The position numbers and the translations under genes are program-made. From Fimbriimonas ginsengisoli Gsoil 348 (lineage in GTDB: Bacteria; Armatimonadota; Fimbriimonadia; Fimbriimonadales; Fimbriimonadaceae), in assembly GCF_000724625.1 (NCBI RefSeq), contig NZ_CP007139.1, positions 620,001-684,000 of the forward strand: a stretch of DNA of 64,000 bases, read 5' to 3'. Below the pieces are notes generated by a model that was not told the origin of the DNA, searched no databases, and saw only the letters and a list, made by a program, of their open reading frames with translations. Shown piece by piece: positions 12,766 through 55,994 of this stretch (the first letter of the stretch is position 1; every line of letters starts with the position of its first letter).

Positions 12766-12772
12766 CTCCATT

Positions 12773-12987
12773 GCTTGATTGCAGGATTGCTTGACTGCTC
12801 GATTGGGCCGGTACGAACTCTTGGGTTCGTACCGGCCCTTCTACATTGCTTGATTGCTGGATTGTTGGATTGCTTGATTGGAGAGGAACAGTCCGCTGCC
12901 TCCGCCTAAGCTAGACCGGCGGCAAAGGCTCCATAATGGACCAACTGGGGAATCGAGCAATCGAGCAATTTAAGAATCCAGCAATCG
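12773..12987. repeat. Heptamer-word inverted repeat between secY and adk
   Basis: Two stretches of repeated ATTGCTTG/GATTGCT-type words (12773-12806 and 12844-12881) face a complementary stretch of AATCGAGCAATCGAGCAA-like words at 12951-12987, just before adk. A perfect 13-bp hairpin (12805-12838) is embedded. The left and right arrays could fold into a long imperfect stem. It is inside what should be one ribosomal transcript. Confidence 0.7.
12805..12838 (+). terminator. Strong hairpin in secY-adk spacer, terminator-like or processing site
   Basis: GGGCCGGTACGAA (12805-12817) pairs perfectly with TTCGTACCGGCCC (12826-12838) around an eight-base loop. It is followed only by TTCTACATT, so the T-tract is weak. 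It could attenuate transcription between secY and adk or stabilise mRNA ends. Confidence 0.5.
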
Positions 12988-12988
12988 A

Positions 12989-14743: not shown

Positions 14744-14812
14744 TCCGGAGCCCCTCTCCCTCCTCGGGATGTATGTGTCCGACGAGGGAGAGGGGGTTGG
14801 GGGTGAGGGGGT
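14744..14812. repeat. CTCCGGAG/CCCTCTCCCTC stem-loop repeat, copy B
   Basis: The outer stem CCCCTCTCCCTC pairs with GAGGGAGAGGGG. The inner stem TCGGG/TCCGA (one G-T pair) encloses the loop ATGTATGTG at 14769-14777. The left end is CTCCGGAG and the right end is GTTGGGGGTGAGGGG. It begins 2 bases after the infA stop. Copy C (55932-55994) is the same element inverted, with a different but still paired inner stem. Confidence 0.75.
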
Positions 14813-14818
14813 ATGGAC

Positions 14819-14893
14819 GGTGATGGCTGATGGATGATGTCTGAAGATCGCCGACCTTCCGCCTTCCGCCTTCCGCCTTCCGCCTTCCGCCTT
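14819..14893. repeat. Heptamer tandem repeats (GNTGATG and CCTTCCG)
   Basis: GGTGATG, GCTGATG and GATGATG follow one another at 14819-14839. After a short gap comes a perfect five-fold tandem of the heptamer CCTTCCG (14855-14889). No facing complementary array was seen for this one. The spacer separates infA from a gene that is not normally in ribosomal operons. Confidence 0.8.
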
Positions 14894-16063: not shown

Positions 16064-16118
16064 AGGTTGGCGGTCAGGGGCTCGAATGGCCGCTAACCGC
16101 TAACCGCTAACCGCTAAC
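16064..16118. repeat. Heptamer-word repeat between rpsM and rpsK
   Basis: CGCTAAC is repeated four times without a gap (16091-16118). A degenerate complementary left arm, GGTTGGCGGTCAG, starts at 16064. The folded element would lie immediately before the rpsK start at 16129, which has no other clear ribosome binding site. Confidence 0.8.
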
Positions 16119-16128
16119 GCACTAAGAC

Positions 16129-16521
16129 ATGGCAAGAAAAGCAGTCCAGAAAGGCAAGCAGAAGGAGCGGAAGAATATTCCGGTTGGCGTCGCCCACATT
16201 CGCGCGACGTTCAACAACACCCTTATCACCATCACCGATCCGGGAGGAAACACGATCTCCTGGGCGAGCGCCGGCAACGTGAACTTTAAGGGTTCGCGAA
16301 AGGGCACTCCGTTCGCCGCGCAGGTCGCCGCCGATAAGGCGAGCCGACTGGCGCAGGAGCACGGCCTTCGCCGAGTCGACGTTCAGGTTCGCGGCCCCGG
16401 CTCCGGCCGTGAAACGGCGATCCGTTCCCTTCAGGCATCGGGCCTCGAAGTGTCGAGCATCGTCGACGTCACCCCGCTTCCGCACAACGGCTGCCGACCG
16501 CCGAAGCGACGCCGAGTCTAA
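16129..16521 (+). CDS. rpsK: 30S ribosomal protein S11
   Basis: The 130-residue protein carries the S11 core [22 protein letters not shown], the ISWASAG segment, and the C-terminal [20 protein letters not shown]11 forms part of the 30S platform at the mRNA exit. In most bacteria rpsD follows, but here the next gene after a 93-bp spacer is rpoA. Confidence 0.98.
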
Positions 16522-16588
16522 GGTTTCGAGGTGTTGAGATCAAAGGGTGAATCTGCCCTAACCGCTTAAAGCCTCAGCACCGCAAACC
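16522..16588. repeat. Inverted repeat in rpsK-rpoA spacer
   Basis: GGTTTCGAGGTGTTGAG (16522-16538) faces CCTCAGCACCGCAAACC (16572-16588), an imperfect inverted repeat with about 12 of 17 positions paired. It begins right after the rpsK stop. No rpsD gene or remnant was recognised in the spacer. Confidence 0.55.
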
Positions 16589-16614
16589 CCACACAACGTA
16601 AACGAAAAACCGGA

Positions 16615-17610
16615 ATGCCCCACATCTCTACCCTTGACATCCAGCAAGACTACGGCAAATTCGTGCTCGAACCCCTCGAGCGCGGATACGGCCAGACCAT
16701 CGGCAACGCGCTTCGACGCGTGCTGCTGAGTTCGATCCAGGGCGCGGCGATCGCCGCCATCCGGGTCGATAAGGTCTTCCACGAGTTCGCTCCCATTCCT
16801 GGCGTCAAGGAAGACACCATCCAGCTCGTCCTCAACCTAAAGGACGTGGCAATCCGGGCAACCGGAGAGGCCGCGCAGAACGAGCAGGTGCTCCGCATCG
16901 ACGTGAAGGGTCCGGGCCGCGTTACCGGCGCCGACATCATCACTCCGGAAGGGGTCGAAGTCGTCAATCCCGAGGTTTACATCGCTACCATCAGCGACTC
17001 CAACTCCAGCCTTACCATGGAGATGTACGTCAACTGGGGCGCTGGCTACACTCTGCCGGAGAAGCAGGAGCGGTACAAGGGCATGATCGGAGTGATTCCG
17101 ACCGGCTCACAGTACACCCCGGTGAAGAAGGTCAACTACACGGTCGAGTCGACCCGCGTCGGTATGCGTACCGACTACGAGCGGCTTGTGCTGGACGTTT
17201 GGACCAACGGCGCCGTCACCCCGAACGACGCGATTTCGCAGGCCGCCCACATTCTCGACAAGTATTTCCGAATGTTCTTCGATCTCGGCCAGGCCGGTTT
17301 CGAGGACGAGGCGGAAATCACCGAGGACATGTCGGACGAGATGCTGAAGAACGTTCCCGATCTTCGGATCGAGGAGCTCGACTTCTCGCAACGAACCTTC
17401 AACTGTCTGCGCCGCGCCGGGATCTTGAACCTCAAGAATCTCGCCGTGGCCACCGAAAGCGACCTGACGGCGATCCGAGGCTTCGGTAAGAAGTCGCTGC
17501 TCGAAGTTCGCGACAAACTGGCCGAGCACGGACTCGAACTGAAGCCGCCGAAGGGTGGTTACCGTTCCGCGCTCGATACCCTCGACGACGAAGACGACGA
17601 GGACTTCTGA
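16615..17610 (+). CDS. rpoA: DNA-directed RNA polymerase subunit alpha
   Basis: The 331-residue protein has the alpha N-terminal domain (FVLEPLERGYGQTIGNALRRVLLSSIQGAAI, about residues 13-43, the dimerisation region) and the C-terminal domain after a linker (LDFSQRTFNCLRRAGILNLKNLAVATESDLTAIRGFGKKSLLEVRDKLAEHGL). The CTD binds UP elements and activators. An acidic tail (DTLDDEDDEDF) ends the protein. It is preceded by rpsK and followed by rplQ, as usual. Confidence 0.98.
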   Translation: MPHISTLDIQQDYGKFVLEPLERGYGQTIGNALRRVLLSSIQGAAIAAIRVDKVFHEFAPIPGVKEDTIQLVLNLKDVAIRATGEAAQNEQVLRIDVKGPGRVTGADIITPEGVEVVNPEVYIATISDSNSSLTMEMYVNWGAGYTLPEKQERYKGMIGVIPTGSQYTPVKKVNYTVESTRVGMRTDYERLVLDVWTNGAVTPNDAISQAAHILDKYFRMFFDLGQAGFEDEAEITEDMSDEMLKNVPDLRIEELDFSQRTFNCLRRAGILNLKNLAVATESDLTAIRGFGKKSLLEVRDKLAEHGLELKPPKGGYRSALDTLDDEDDEDF

Positions 17611-17616
17611 ATTTGA

Positions 17617-17688
17617 GTTAGCAGTTCGCAGTTAGCAGTTGGCACTTTGCCTCCCCTAACTGCAAGCTGCAAACTGCCAACCGCTAAC
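17617..17688. repeat. Heptamer-word inverted repeat between rpoA and rplQ
   Basis: The left arm is built from GTTAGCA/GTTCGCA-like heptamers (17617-17644). The right arm (17657-17688) consists of TAACTGC/AAGCTGC/AAACTGC words that are their complements. The loop is about 12 bases. This is one of the clearest paired arrays in the window and nearly fills the 88-bp spacer. Confidence 0.8.
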
Positions 17689-17698
17689 TAAAAGGAAA

Positions 17699-18157: not shown

Positions 18158-18220
18158 AAGGCGCGAGGCGTAAGGCGTAAAGTTTAGAACTTCACGCTCC
18201 GCGCCTCACGCCTTGCGCCT
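18158..18220. repeat. Heptamer-word inverted repeat between rplQ and truA
   Basis: AAGGCGCGAGGCGTAAGGCG (from 18158) is a run of GGCGNNA words. It faces CTTCACGCTCCGCGCCTCAC and GCCTTGCGCC (18190-18220), the complementary words. The array ends one base before the truA ATG, so a folded mRNA would hide the truA start region. Confidence 0.8.
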
Positions 18221-18221
18221 C

Positions 18222-19013
18222 ATGCGCATCAAGCTCACCGTCGCCTACGACGGAACTGAATTCCGCGGTTGGGCTCCGCAAGCTGGACAGAGAACTGTTC
18301 AGGGCACATTGAGAGAAGCTGTTCGCCTTATCTCGGGCGAGGAAGTCGAGATCACCGGAGCCAGCCGCACCGACAGCGGCGCTCACGCGCGGGGACAGGT
18401 ATGCCACTTCGATACGAAGTCGCCAATGCCTACCGCGAAGTGGGCGCGAGTGCTGAACAAGCGGCTTCCCTCCGACCTGGCCGTCGTCAGCGCGACCGTC
18501 GTGGATGAATCGTTCCACAGCCGGTTCTGCGCAATGGATCGATTCTATCGGTATCGAATCCAGACCGGCGTCCGGGATCCCCACCGCACGCGCTTCGCGC
18601 ATTGGTATGGACGTCCTTTGGACATCCCCGCTATGCAAATCGGAGCCGGCGCGCTTACCGGGGAGCACGACTTCCTGGCGTTCACCGAAGAACTCGAACC
18701 CCACGTGATCAACACGCGGCGAGAGCTCTTCTCCTTCCGTGTTCGCCAAGTTCGAGATGAGGTGTGGCTGGACGTTGTCGGCACGGCCTTCCTACGCGGA
18801 ATGATGCGGAGGATGGCGGGCGCGCTCCTGGAAGTGGGGCGAGGCTACCGAGACGTCGCAGAGGTCAGCAAGCTCCTCCACCCAGAGGAGCGGATGGGTG
18901 TCCAGTTGCCCGTAGTTCTCCCCGCAAACGGCTTATGCCTGATGCAGGTGCGATACGGCCGCTTTCCCAAAGACAACCGCACCACGACAATCGAACCGCT
19001 TCCCACGACTTAA
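18222..19013 (+). CDS. truA: tRNA pseudouridine(38-40) synthase
   Basis: The 263-residue protein starts at ATG 18222 (MRIKLTVAYDGTEFRGWAPQ). The catalytic Asp lies in the conserved SRTDSGAHARGQ block (near residue 50), and later come FYRYRIQ and the FLRGMMRRMAGALLEVGRG motif. TruA modifies uridines 38-40 of the tRNA anticodon arm. A TTG nine bases upstream would add only three residues. truA between rplQ and rplM is a common order. The start is overlapped by the preceding heptamer repeat. Confidence 0.96.
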   Translation: MRIKLTVAYDGTEFRGWAPQAGQRTVQGTLREAVRLISGEEVEITGASRTDSGAHARGQVCHFDTKSPMPTAKWARVLNKRLPSDLAVVSATVVDESFHSRFCAMDRFYRYRIQTGVRDPHRTRFAHWYGRPLDIPAMQIGAGALTGEHDFLAFTEELEPHVINTRRELFSFRVRQVRDEVWLDVVGTAFLRGMMRRMAGALLEVGRGYRDVAEVSKLLHPEERMGVQLPVVLPANGLCLMQVRYGRFPKDNRTTTIEPLPTT

Positions 19014-19073
19014 CAGGTCCGGGTCACAGGCAACCCCTGAGATTCCCTAAGACCTACGACCTGAGACCTGAGA
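19014..19073. repeat. Heptamer repeat between truA and rplM
   Basis: GACCTAC-GACCTGA-GACCTGA occupies 19051-19071. A degenerate complementary stretch (AGGTCCGGGTCACAGG) precedes it just after the truA stop. The period is again seven bases. Confidence 0.65.
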
Positions 19074-26453: not shown

Positions 26454-26481
26454 GATGATTGATATTTGATGTGTGATTTGT
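26454..26481. repeat. Degenerate heptamer repeat after the sulfatase-like gene
   Basis: GATGATT-GATATTT-GATGTGT-GATTTGT are four consecutive heptamers sharing GAT at the start and T at the end. It lies 2 bases after the stop codon. No complementary array was found nearby. Confidence 0.45.
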
Positions 26482-28687: not shown

Positions 28688-30172
28688 ATGCATTCCTACC
28701 GTAGCTCGCTGTCCGTTCTACTTCCCGCTCTCCTCTTATCTCTGGCTTCGGCCCAATATCCGGGTGCGACGCCGCCGCCAAACGATCTTAAGCGCGGATT
28801 CGACGCGATCACGATTCCGAAAGCGCAGTCGATCCTCACCTTCCTCGCCACCCAGTGTGACGGCCGGGGTACCGGCCAACCCGGATTTCAGAAAGCGGCG
28901 GAATACGTCGCGAAGAAATTCAAAGCCGCGGGCCTCAAGCCGATGGGCGATAACGGAACGTACTTCCAACACCAGACCTTCTACCGGTCGATGACGGTGA
29001 ACCCGAAGATCGCCGGCGCCGATGGCAAGGTTTTGGTCGATCGCGGCTTGGTTTTGAACCCGACCAAGGAAAATATCGACGTCACCGGACCGGTGATGGT
29101 GGTGCGAGCGATCAACGATAAGATGCGGCTCTCCGAGGCCGACGCGGCGAAGCTCGACGGTAAGATCGTCATCCTCATCGCTCCGGCAGGCCGCAGCTCA
29201 GTTCGGTCTCAGGTCGCGGCCGCCGACACCAAGGCTCTGCTCACCGTCGTAGACGGGAATCCAATTTTCGCCCCGAGCGTGCGGAGAACCCCCGGCGGGC
29301 CGACCAGCATGACGGTCAGCGGGCGGATTGCGAAAAAGTCACTGGGCCGGCTCGGCAAGTCGATTGAGACATTTGCGGGAATGACGCCGGTCAGCGAAAT
29401 CACCATCTTAGAGCCCAGCCTAACGCTCCATGTGACCGGCCAAACGAAGAGCGAGGACGTTAAGGTTCCCAACGTCGTCGGCCTTCTCGAGGGCTCTGAT
29501 CCGGTGCTCAAGAATGAGTACATCGGAATTGGGGGCCATCTGGACCACCTAGGAGTTAACCAGGCGGGCGTCGTTTACCCCGGGGCGGACGACGACGGAT
29601 CGGGCTCGACATCGGTGATGCTGATCGCGGATGCGATGAAGAACAACCGCGTCAAACCCCGGCGCAGCATTCTTTTCATGACCTTCTTCGGCGAAGAAAT
29701 GGGGCTGCTCGGATCGTCATTTTTGACGGACCACCCACCCGTACCGCTCGATAAGATGGTCTCCGAGCTCCAGATGGACATGGTTGCCAGGGACTCGTTC
29801 GGCCCCCAAAACGGCGATCCAAACCGGATCGACAAGGTCGAAGAAAACATGGATACGATCCGCCTGGTCGGCAGCAAACGGATCTCGACCGATCTCGACC
29901 ACGTGATCCAGGACGTCAACAAGTACGTGGGATTCCGTTTCAAGTACGACGCCGAAGACGTCTACACCCGCAGCGACCACTACAACTTCGCCAAGAAAGG
30001 GATCCCAATCGCCTTCCTCTTCGACGGATTCACTCCCAGCTACCACCAGCCGACCGACACCGTCGACACGATCGACTTTAAGAAGCTGACGAGCGCCGCC
30101 AAGCTGTACTACCTGACGGCGCTGGCGATCGCCAACACCGACCAGGCACCGCGGAAGGATGTTGGGAAGTAG
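28688..30172 (+). CDS. M28 family metallopeptidase with PA domain, exported
   Basis: From the ATG at 28688 the protein has 494 residues with a signal peptide (SSLSVLLPALLLSLASAQ). A protease-associated region occupies about 100-260. The di-zinc site is visible: GGHLDHLG (His), PGADDDGSGS (Asp), FFGEEMGLLGS (catalytic and ligand Glu), and the C-terminal HQPTDTVDTIDF (His). Known members are aminopeptidases or carboxypeptidases acting in the periplasm or outside. An upstream in-frame extension to 28625 lacks a signal and was rejected. Its stop codon is the first triplet of a heptamer repeat. Confidence 0.92.
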   Translation: MHSYRSSLSVLLPALLLSLASAQYPGATPPPNDLKRGFDAITIPKAQSILTFLATQCDGRGTGQPGFQKAAEYVAKKFKAAGLKPMGDNGTYFQHQTFYRSMTVNPKIAGADGKVLVDRGLVLNPTKENIDVTGPVMVVRAINDKMRLSEADAAKLDGKIVILIAPAGRSSVRSQVAAADTKALLTVVDGNPIFAPSVRRTPGGPTSMTVSGRIAKKSLGRLGKSIETFAGMTPVSEITILEPSLTLHVTGQTKSEDVKVPNVVGLLEGSDPVLKNEYIGIGGHLDHLGVNQAGVVYPGADDDGSGSTSVMLIADAMKNNRVKPRRSILFMTFFGEEMGLLGSSFLTDHPPVPLDKMVSELQMDMVARDSFGPQNGDPNRIDKVEENMDTIRLVGSKRISTDLDHVIQDVNKYVGFRFKYDAEDVYTRSDHYNFAKKGIPIAFLFDGFTPSYHQPTDTVDTIDFKKLTSAAKLYYLTALAIANTDQAPRKDVGK

Positions 30173-30226
30173 GCGCTAGGCGTTGGGCGTTAGGGAGGAG
30201 GTAAAGCCTCAACGCCCTACAACCTT
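30170..30226. repeat. Heptamer-word inverted repeat after the M28 peptidase
   Basis: TAGGCGC-TAGGCGT-TGGGCGT-TAGGGAG (30170-30197) begins at the stop codon itself. It faces CCTCAACGCCCTACAACCTT (30207-30226), whose words are complementary. The same GGCGTTA-type word is used at 39141 and, with changes, at 50811. Confidence 0.75.
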
Positions 30227-39140: not shown

Positions 39141-39247
39141 GGCATTGGGCGTTAGGCGTTGGGCGTTAACGTGCGCATAACGCTCTTCAGCATACGAACG
39201 ACTTCTCCAACGTCCAACGCCTTAGCGCCTAACGCCTCAACGCCCCT
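39141..39247. repeat. Heptamer-word inverted repeat between GH172 and NmrA-like genes
   Basis: The left array is GGCATTG-GGCGTTA-GGCGTTG-GGCGTTA (39141-39168). The right array is CCAACGT-CCAACGC-CTTAGCG-CCTAACG (39207-39234), continuing CCTCAACGCCC. Left and right are complementary in word and frame, about 38 bases apart. It is the clearest example of the type in the window and fills most of the spacer. Confidence 0.85.
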
Positions 39248-50255: not shown

Positions 50256-50831
50256 ATGTCCCCTCCCCTCACCCGCTGCTCCTGGGCTGTGTCCGATCTG
50301 ATGGCTCGGTATCACGATGAGGAGTGGGGGATTCCCTGCCACGACGACGATCGGCTCTTTGAGATGCTCTCGTTGGAAGGGGCTCAGGCGGGGTTGAGCT
50401 GGGAGACCGTATTGAAGAAGCGGGAGGGGTACCGGCAGGAGTATCACGGCTTCCGGATCGCTCGGGTGGCAGAAATGACTCCCGACGACGTGGAGAGGAT
50501 CCTTCAGAACCCGGGCGTCATTCGGCACCGAGGGAAGCTGGAAAGCGTCGTGTCGAACGCCAAGGCCGTGATCGAGATTCAGAGGGAATATGGCTCGTTG
50601 TCCACCTACCTTTGGAGCTTTGTCGGCAATGCGCCGATCGTCAATCGGGAGTCGGCCCTGGCAAGCACGCCGGAGTCGGATGCGATGAGCAAGGCACTCA
50701 AGAAGCGGGGATTCAAGTTCGTCGGCTCGACGATCGTGTACGCCTTCATGCAAGCCTGCGGCATGGCCGACGACCATTCGCCGGATTGCTTTCGTGCGAA
50801 GGAGCAGATGGGCGTGAGGCGTAAGGCGTGA
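50256..50831 (+). CDS. tag: DNA-3-methyladenine glycosylase I
   Basis: The 191-residue protein has the Tag signature: RCSWAVSDLMARYHDEEWGIPCHDD at residues 7-31, FEMLSLEGAQAGLSWETVLKKREGYR, and KRGFKFVGSTIVYAFMQACGMADDHSPDCF at the end. The zinc ligands (Cys near 8, His in YHDEEWG, and the C-terminal His and Cys) are all present. It excises 3-methyladenine from DNA in base-excision repair. The last residues (GVRRKA) and the stop are encoded by a heptamer repeat, so the C-terminus may have been reset by repeat insertion. Confidence 0.95.
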   Translation: MSPPLTRCSWAVSDLMARYHDEEWGIPCHDDDRLFEMLSLEGAQAGLSWETVLKKREGYRQEYHGFRIARVAEMTPDDVERILQNPGVIRHRGKLESVVSNAKAVIEIQREYGSLSTYLWSFVGNAPIVNRESALASTPESDAMSKALKKRGFKFVGSTIVYAFMQACGMADDHSPDCFRAKEQMGVRRKA

Positions 50832-50865
50832 ATTACCTTCGCGCCTTACGCTCCGCGCCTTCACA
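50811..50865. repeat. Heptamer-word inverted repeat at the end of tag
   Basis: GGCGTGA-GGCGTAA-GGCGTGA (50811-50831) includes the last codons and stop of tag. It faces TTCGCGC-CTTACGC-TCCGCGC-CTTCACA (50838-50865), the complementary words. Period seven in both arms. Confidence 0.8.
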
Positions 50866-51884: not shown

Positions 51885-53055
<1,171 letters not shown>

Positions 53056-55931: not shown

Positions 55932-55994
55932 TCACCCCCAACCCCCTCTCCCTCGTCCAGCACGAACATCTGGAGGAGGGAGAGGGGGCTCCGG
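55932..55994. repeat. CTCCGGAG/CCCTCTCCCTC stem-loop repeat, copy C (inverted)
   Basis: On the plus strand the outer stem CCCCCTCTCCCTC pairs with GAGGGAGAGGGGG. The inner stem CCAG/CTGG encloses CACGAACAT, the complement of ATGTTCGTG (55961-55969). It ends GCTCCGGA. It is the reverse complement of copy B in layout and lies in the 120-bp spacer before the DUF4434 gene. Confidence 0.75.

Follow-up and report, generated by a model that had tools for sequence, protein, structure and literature searches.

Paired inverted arrays of seven- and eight-base-pair words in intergenic spacers of Fimbriimonas ginsengisoli

Heptamer and octamer arrays described in other bacteria

The STRR sequences of heterocystous cyanobacteria are tandem 7-bp words, several per genome, that lie in spacers. 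A 300-kb plasmid of Trichormus variabilis carries seven period-7 arrays, against 0-2 at most control periods, and one inverted pair (176122-176155 and 176351-176380). The arrays of Fimbriimonas ginsengisoli considered here are also tandem 7-bp words, in many versions and in spacers, but 8-bp words are common among them, and both arms usually occupy one spacer with a fixed polarity. Their host belongs to the Armatimonadota rather than to the heterocystous cyanobacteria, and by definition they are not STRR.

In Geobacter metallireducens, tandem octamers (GTTGCTYN and TCTCCGTS) form opposite-strand pairs at variable distance and there is a heptamer class, MTYCTGA; the paired repeats were proposed as putative IHF/HU sites (PMC2700814). 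The F. ginsengisoli elements have the same tandem 7-8-bp arrays, opposite-strand pairs, and variable distance. The Geobacter repeats differ in falling into few fixed consensus classes (1-3), seen as protein-binding sites, and the available part of the report mentions neither word turnover at orthologous spacers nor a polarity rule. The P6b stem of the Nostoc trnL intron consists of 7-nt repeats, TDNGATT or NNTGAGT, and its word class has been swapped repeatedly while the stem shape was kept (Kaasalainen et al., 2015; PMC4476775). Replacement of the word within a constant stem design is also seen in F. ginsengisoli spacers; P6b, however, is one group I intron locus with two words, whereas in F. 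ginsengisoli dozens of spacers are involved, and a genome sample of ~1.08 Mb contains at least 33 distinct words.

GGGNATC heptamers of Xanthomonas and Nostoc are bound to spacers, may overlap a stop codon, and have a G-rich strand that reads away from the nearest ORF on its 5' side in any gene orientation (Rehm et al., 2015; PMC4692102). Their polarity is that of the F. ginsengisoli elements, but they are explained as G-quadruplexes, and assignment of the F. ginsengisoli arrays to a G-quadruplex class was rejected since a G3 quadruplex motif occurs in only 3/57 of them. The copy number of arrays in F. ginsengisoli spacers peaks at four units (21/57 arrays), to which the detection threshold may contribute; a four-unit peak is also reported for GGGNATC (PMC4692102), yet few F. 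ginsengisoli arrays are quadruplex-capable. The TAACTGA repeats of Beggiatoaceae are found directly before start codons, also in ribosomal-protein operons, and are patchy across phyla, with 169 direct sets and one indirect repeat (MacGregor, 2015; PMC4679880). The F. ginsengisoli words TAACTGC and TAACCGC are close to this sequence, but TAACTGA is one fixed word, in direct repeats only bar the one indirect set.

The paired inverted form, set apart from the known tandem heptamers in the first-pass annotation of this DNA, has precedents in G. metallireducens (PMC2700814), Nostoc trnL P6b (PMC4476775), and the cyanobacterial plasmid pair. Repeats of this kind have no mention in the main text of the F. 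ginsengisoli genome paper (PMC4072686). Within the part of the literature covered, no description was found of a polarity shared by dozens of words of a single genome in combination with word replacement at orthologous spacers; the polarity and the word turnover at orthologous sites appear new. One architecture with a common polarity would link STRR, the Geobacter paired sites, TAACTGA, GGGNATC, and Nostoc P6b.

Arrays in the window and across the genome

The genome of F. ginsengisoli Gsoil 348 (Armatimonadota) is a single contig of 5,231,762 bp; the window, which is the whole 64-kb stretch analysed, comprises bases 620001-684000 and has no match in Rfam. Genome counts refer to the ~1.08-Mb sample (1.0 Mb in one piece and a further 80 kb), with gene calls from a codon-usage model. 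Arrays were detected by a lag scan of matches and by a segment score (cut-off ≥10).

The spacer at 39141-39247 has a G/T-rich left arm, (GGCRTTR)4, with period 7 on the plus strand (39141-39167), located 5' of the start of a minus-strand NmrA-like gene. The A/C-rich right arm, on the minus strand (39209-39245), consists of YAACGCC words spaced at 7-8 bp and ends 6 bp short of the stop codon in a minus-strand DUF2961 gene. The period-7 score of 13.2 is reached by 0/200 shuffles, the fold-back score is 18 against a shuffle maximum of 14, and the predicted RNA fold of the spacer is -63.3 kcal/mol (z -6.2).

Six of the eleven sites reported at first pass lie inside the SecY-Adk-InfA-S13-S11-RpoA-L17-TruA-L13 operon, part of a SecY-Adk-Map-InfA-S13-S11-RpoA-L17-TruA-L13-S9 cluster at 10.9-19.9 kb (identified by Pfam, except for Map and S9, whose assignment is based on position and order only). 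The SecY-Adk spacer (12767-12988) has period 8, with G/T-rich octamer arrays, ATTGCTTG, at 12767-12805 and 12845-12880 and complementary octamers, AATCGAGC, at 12951-12988. In the spacer after InfA (14819-14893) a degenerate TGATGGN array is followed by (CCTTCCG)5.6. The S13-S11 spacer (16064-16118) has a left arm of GGTTGGCGGTC and a right arm of (CCGCTAA)4, and in the RpoA-L17 spacer (17616-17689) an AGTTAGC array faces a CTAACTGC array, with a Shine-Dalgarno-like AAAAGGAAA intact between array and L17 start. In the L17-TruA spacer (18158-18221) a GGCGYRA (GGCGTRA) array facing its complement fills the gap as far as the TruA ATG at 18222, and the TruA-L13 spacer (19046-19073, plus strand) carries a CCTGAGA array with weak pairing to its left. 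The usual place of the S4 gene in the alpha operon is between S11 and RpoA; no S4 gene was seen there (16521-16615, within 10.9-19.9 kb).

The remaining sites lie outside this operon. A G/T-rich TGATNTT array (26454-26481, plus strand), for which no partner was found, lies directly 3' of a stop codon. At 30170-30226 a GGCGYTR array faces CAACGCC and overlaps the stop codon of an M28 peptidase gene. At 50811-50865 a GGCGTRA array faces its complement, and the stop codon of a 3-methyladenine glycosylase gene is inside the left arm. A degenerate CACGCTT-type array at 52991-53018 (minus strand) is weak (P = 0.01) and unpaired.

A significant 7-bp period is present at 10/11 sites (at two of them weakly, P 0.005-0.01). 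The exception is 12773-12987, where the period is 8 (P = 0 for period 8, P = 1.0 for period 7), so that the period of seven is not, as had been claimed, always kept; 8-bp arrays are also common in the genome sample. All seven sites described as paired have fold-back scores above shuffles (P ≤ 0.015), and those at 16064, 17617, 18158, 30170, and 50811 pass both the period-7 and the fold-back test (fold P ≤ 0.015). The arrays described as unpaired do have the 7-bp period (P ≤ 0.01), but two are in part paired: 14819-14893 has a fold-back score of 10 (P = 0.005) and 19051-19071 a weak partner to its left.

Apart from 8, period 7 is the sole frequent short tandem period in a lag scan of the window. 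In the 100 kb of spacers of the genome sample, runs of at least seven matches number 39 at lag 7 and 27 at lag 8, against 5 in shuffles for each, with echoes at 14, 16, 21, and 24. By segment score (≥10) the spacers hold 37 period-7 arrays against 0 in shuffled spacers, which bears out the 7-bp periodicity noted at first pass, and 18 period-8 arrays, also against 0; control periods of 4, 5, 10, 11, 13, and 17 give 0-3 arrays each. There are about two 7-bp arrays for each 8-bp array, so that the 8-bp type makes up about one third of the total. Coding sequences of the same sample show no enrichment of 7- or 8-bp arrays by either measure, and 57/61 arrays are intergenic; tandem 7-bp units confined to non-coding DNA are features of the STRR type.

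Elements typically consist of a G/T-rich left arm and an A/C-rich right arm, e.g., tagGCGTTGGGCGTT...AACGCC-atg, and array position is associated with composition (26:6 on the left, 4:21 on the right; Fisher P = 9e-7). Among stems with periodic arms, 23/25 are G/T-richer on the left, with one opposite and one tie, whereas non-periodic stems of the genome show no such polarity (75 vs 87). The polarity of periodic stems is present in ++, --, +-, and -+ spacers; since an inverted repeat reads alike on both strands, it is a property of the element and not of the direction of transcription. Most elements bridge the intergenic gap, often running from one stop codon to the following start or stop codon. 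An arm can overlap the stop codon, and A/C-rich arms often adjoin start codons.

The two arms of an element are often unlike, with 2-4 units of period 7 in one and 12-16 identical units of period 8 in the other; arm periods often differ in the sense of 7 on the left and 8 on the right, and copy numbers differ too. Pairing was assessed by matching the first and last 70 nt of each spacer in inverted orientation, with partners permuted 5000 times. Ends of array spacers match their own partner at 10.5 against 8.1 ± 0.43 for permuted partners (0/5000), and at 9.4 against 7.2 without the GGCGTT word (0/5000); control spacers have a smaller own-arm excess (8.2 vs 7.15), because the F. ginsengisoli genome is hairpin-rich. 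In the GGCGTT class, the most frequent of the word classes, own arms match no better than the arms of other elements (mean normalised rank 0.50; Wilcoxon P = 0.94). The palindromy that is kept concerns the word, and unit register is usually not common to both arms. The first-pass proposal of a copying or slippage mechanism that preserves palindromy thus holds for the sharing of words within spacers (0/5000) but not for the order of units, which is not mirrored in the GGCGTT class. Mirrored unit order as a general proof of arm copying, initially found in 13/28 elements at P < 0.05, was rejected: the test was inflated, as arms were cut at the best alignment, and a stricter same-word comparison removed the signal for the GGCGTT class. 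Near-exact mirror elements with variant units in the same order do occur, at loci 1174956 (35/37 identical) and 1145747.

Orthologous spacers and other taxa

Orthologous spacers in the family, a comparison suggested at first pass, support a constant architecture with changed words. In most relatives these spacers are short gaps or contain plain hairpins, and in four other species they carry inverted heptamers in different words, in line with the first-pass description of one plan in changing words. The S13-S11 spacer is only 2-25 bp in most of 30 family genomes, but inverted heptamers occupy it in F. ginsengisoli (CCGCTAA), in G091 (CAGGGTN facing CTGAACC), and in G141 (GAATGCC facing ACATTCG). 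The L17-TruA spacer has inverted heptamers in F. ginsengisoli (GGCGTRA) and G103 (GCAGTTT/AAACTGC), and less regular ones in G141 (GGTGAGA/TCTCACA). Most other congeners have plain hairpins there, of which some end in T6 tails; plain hairpins were seen in G001, G002, G003, G006, G009, G100, and G101, several with T-runs. F. ginsengisoli has an octamer in the SecY-Adk spacer, where G004 has GGCGTTR (locus L082), and in the family comparison the RpoA-L17 spacer has an array in F. ginsengisoli only.

Among 82 ribosomal-protein spacers of the family (30-240 bp), period 7 is found in 8 (score ≥8), period 8 in 1, period 9 in 2, and periods 5, 6, and 10 in 0; all of the period-7 spacers among those listed fold back above 30 shuffles. 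The comparison also shows that the elements are recent and not required. Spacers of ribosomal-protein operons may serve as a test bed for the origin and turnover of hairpins at orthologous positions.

Three consecutive GGCGTTR words are found in 6/291 Armatimonadota, are absent from 19 congeners, and are present in many phyla. In other phyla, 27 flanks of 107 such arrays have a complementary partner within 200 bp, against 2 for a reversed control (score ≥14); the partner is on the 3' side in 18 vs 9 cases (20 vs 10 at score ≥12, P = 0.10), and overall there is no polarity relative to the nearest ORF (35 vs 36). Genome G126, from another genus of the same family, has a higher array density than F. 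ginsengisoli, with many words (loci L160-L169), and the polarity of its arrays is not significant; its degenerate heptamers GATCTCC, CAATCTC, CTCCCAG, and GTTCATC are mostly without clear partners.

Possible origins of the elements

The reading tentatively favoured here, at somewhat less than an even chance, is that the elements are non-coding repeats of the STRR kind, specific to the lineage and generated locally, which take an inverted form with two arms and arise by inverted duplication at the DNA level followed by independent slippage. A short spacer would gain a few copies of a 7-8-bp word; then, as DNA is synthesized, the nascent strand would fold back and switch template, leaving an inverted copy of the array alongside; and each arm would expand, shrink, and homogenize separately by slippage, a step indirectly indicated by the unlike arms. 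The two arms would still share the word as their unit orders and copy numbers diverged, and the elements, sitting between genes, would be tolerated as intercistronic hairpins. Speculatively, the polarity might arise if fold-back is initiated chiefly during growth of the G/T-rich strand. Hairpins can be both formed and repaired by template switching (PMC8794818; in E. coli, PMC7202029).

Inverted duplication is favoured because words match within spacers above permutation and most elements bridge the intergenic gap, because there is no G.U excess, few U-tracts occur, and the arms are unlike in period and copy number, and because the polarity (23:1 vs 75:87) is independent of the direction of transcription. 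Loci 1174956 and 1145747 mirror almost exactly, as expected soon after inverted copying, and local generation is preferred over the spread of a single element because orthologous spacers gain unrelated words in each species. The model is weakened because GGCGTT-class arms bear no direct trace of copying in most elements, because known template switching accounts neither for a period of 7-8 nor for the polarity, because GGCGTTR across phyla needs convergence or transfer, and because hairpin-rich spacers are general in the genome and controls show an own-arm excess of their own.

Selection for intercistronic stems that work in mRNA (differential stability, processing, or translation coupling), the alternative offered at first pass, is rather unlikely. 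Stems are strong (predicted fold z -2.7 to -6.6) and sites lie between co-transcribed essential genes; the L17-TruA gap has some hairpin, of differing sequence, in nearly all members of the genus, and the frequent position of A/C-rich arms beside start codons would also suit such a role. Against this, the predicted excess of G.U over A.C mismatches in the sense orientation is not seen either in stems of tandem spacers of F. ginsengisoli (23 vs 26) or in ribosomal-protein hairpins family-wide (17 vs 23), counts at which a two-to-one excess is detectable and a weak one is not. Polarity and design are identical in convergent and divergent spacers, many relatives have no hairpin at S13-S11 and RpoA-L17, and period and copy number drift between arms. 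Transcription terminators are highly improbable: arrays are slightly more common in convergent (8/101) than in divergent (3/138) spacers, but a U-tract follows only 4/25 periodic stems, a rate like that of other short-loop stems (13/99), arm polarity tends to be opposite to that of terminator-like stems of F. ginsengisoli, and six sites are inside an essential operon. The mismatch pattern and the rarity of U-tracts argue against both sense-RNA selection and terminators. A role of the A/C arm in translation initiation was rejected, as Shine-Dalgarno use is unchanged in genes whose start is preceded by an array (4/23 vs 210/846, P = 0.62) and convergent spacers carry the identical arm type.

Non-autonomous mobile elements of REP/MITE type, with the arrays as terminal repeats, are unlikely as a general explanation, although one subset has features of this kind. 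An onion-layered element consists of a K-array, a TGTGGACTG heptamer block, ATGGGACGA 9-mers with their complement, a AAGGTAAAGCC block, and an M-array; its core has ~50 matches in the genome (L120-L149), in both orientations and inside G/T and A/C arrays, which indicates that some of the elements were dispersed as units. The fixed outer polarity resembles that of terminal inverted repeats, and the genome has 13 matches to a Y1-type transposase. However, no array was found within 1.5 kb of the 8 Y1 loci inspected, no target-site duplication was identified, most elements have no common core, and the words are many (at least 33 in the 1.08-Mb sample). Co-variation of the outer words around the onion core is suggestive only (Fisher P = 0.08), and in a plasmid collection neither this core nor a typical cyanobacterial heptamer array has a match. 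A function as paired sites bound by a DNA-bending or nucleoid protein, by analogy with the proposal for G. metallireducens, is improbable. The layout of tandem 7- and 8-mers in opposite-strand pairs at variable distance is shared, and the ATTGCTTG octamers are similar to the octamer GTTGCTYN of class 1 (PMC2700814), but word turnover within one genome and at orthologous spacers leaves no constant recognition sequence, and the Geobacter precedent is itself only a proposal.

Under local inverted duplication followed by slippage, the onion-layered subset must additionally have been dispersed as a unit. A broader version of this reading, doubtful at present, is that a widespread, hitherto undescribed process acting on DNA places inverted arrays of a 7-8-bp word, chosen locus by locus, in intergenic gaps and always with the G/T-to-A/C polarity; a given gap would thereby gain the same hairpin design independently, and in different words, from species to species. 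If the process is mutational, an apparent conserved RNA structure with changing sequence could arise without selection on RNA, which would affect how covariation is read.

Several other repeats were observed beside these elements. The words GTTAGGC/GCCTAAC resemble the core sites of integron attC sites, which were set aside because attC sites have a polarity opposite to that of the heptamer elements and a fixed length and structure. The onion-layered element nests inverted arrays of 7-mers, 7-mers, and 9-mers together with a conserved AAGGTAAAGCCTCACACTAA block. A dispersed hairpin family, CCCCCTCTCCCTC...GAGGGAGAGGGGG, with members at 14751-14812 and 55942-55988 of the window, has an arm polarity opposite to that of the heptamer elements, and other dispersed palindromes (GATCCCTCCCGACGCG, CACGGGCTTCCAGCCCGTG, CGCAGGTTGGCTCGTACCTGCG, and GTAGCCCGGGG) fill further spacers of the genome.
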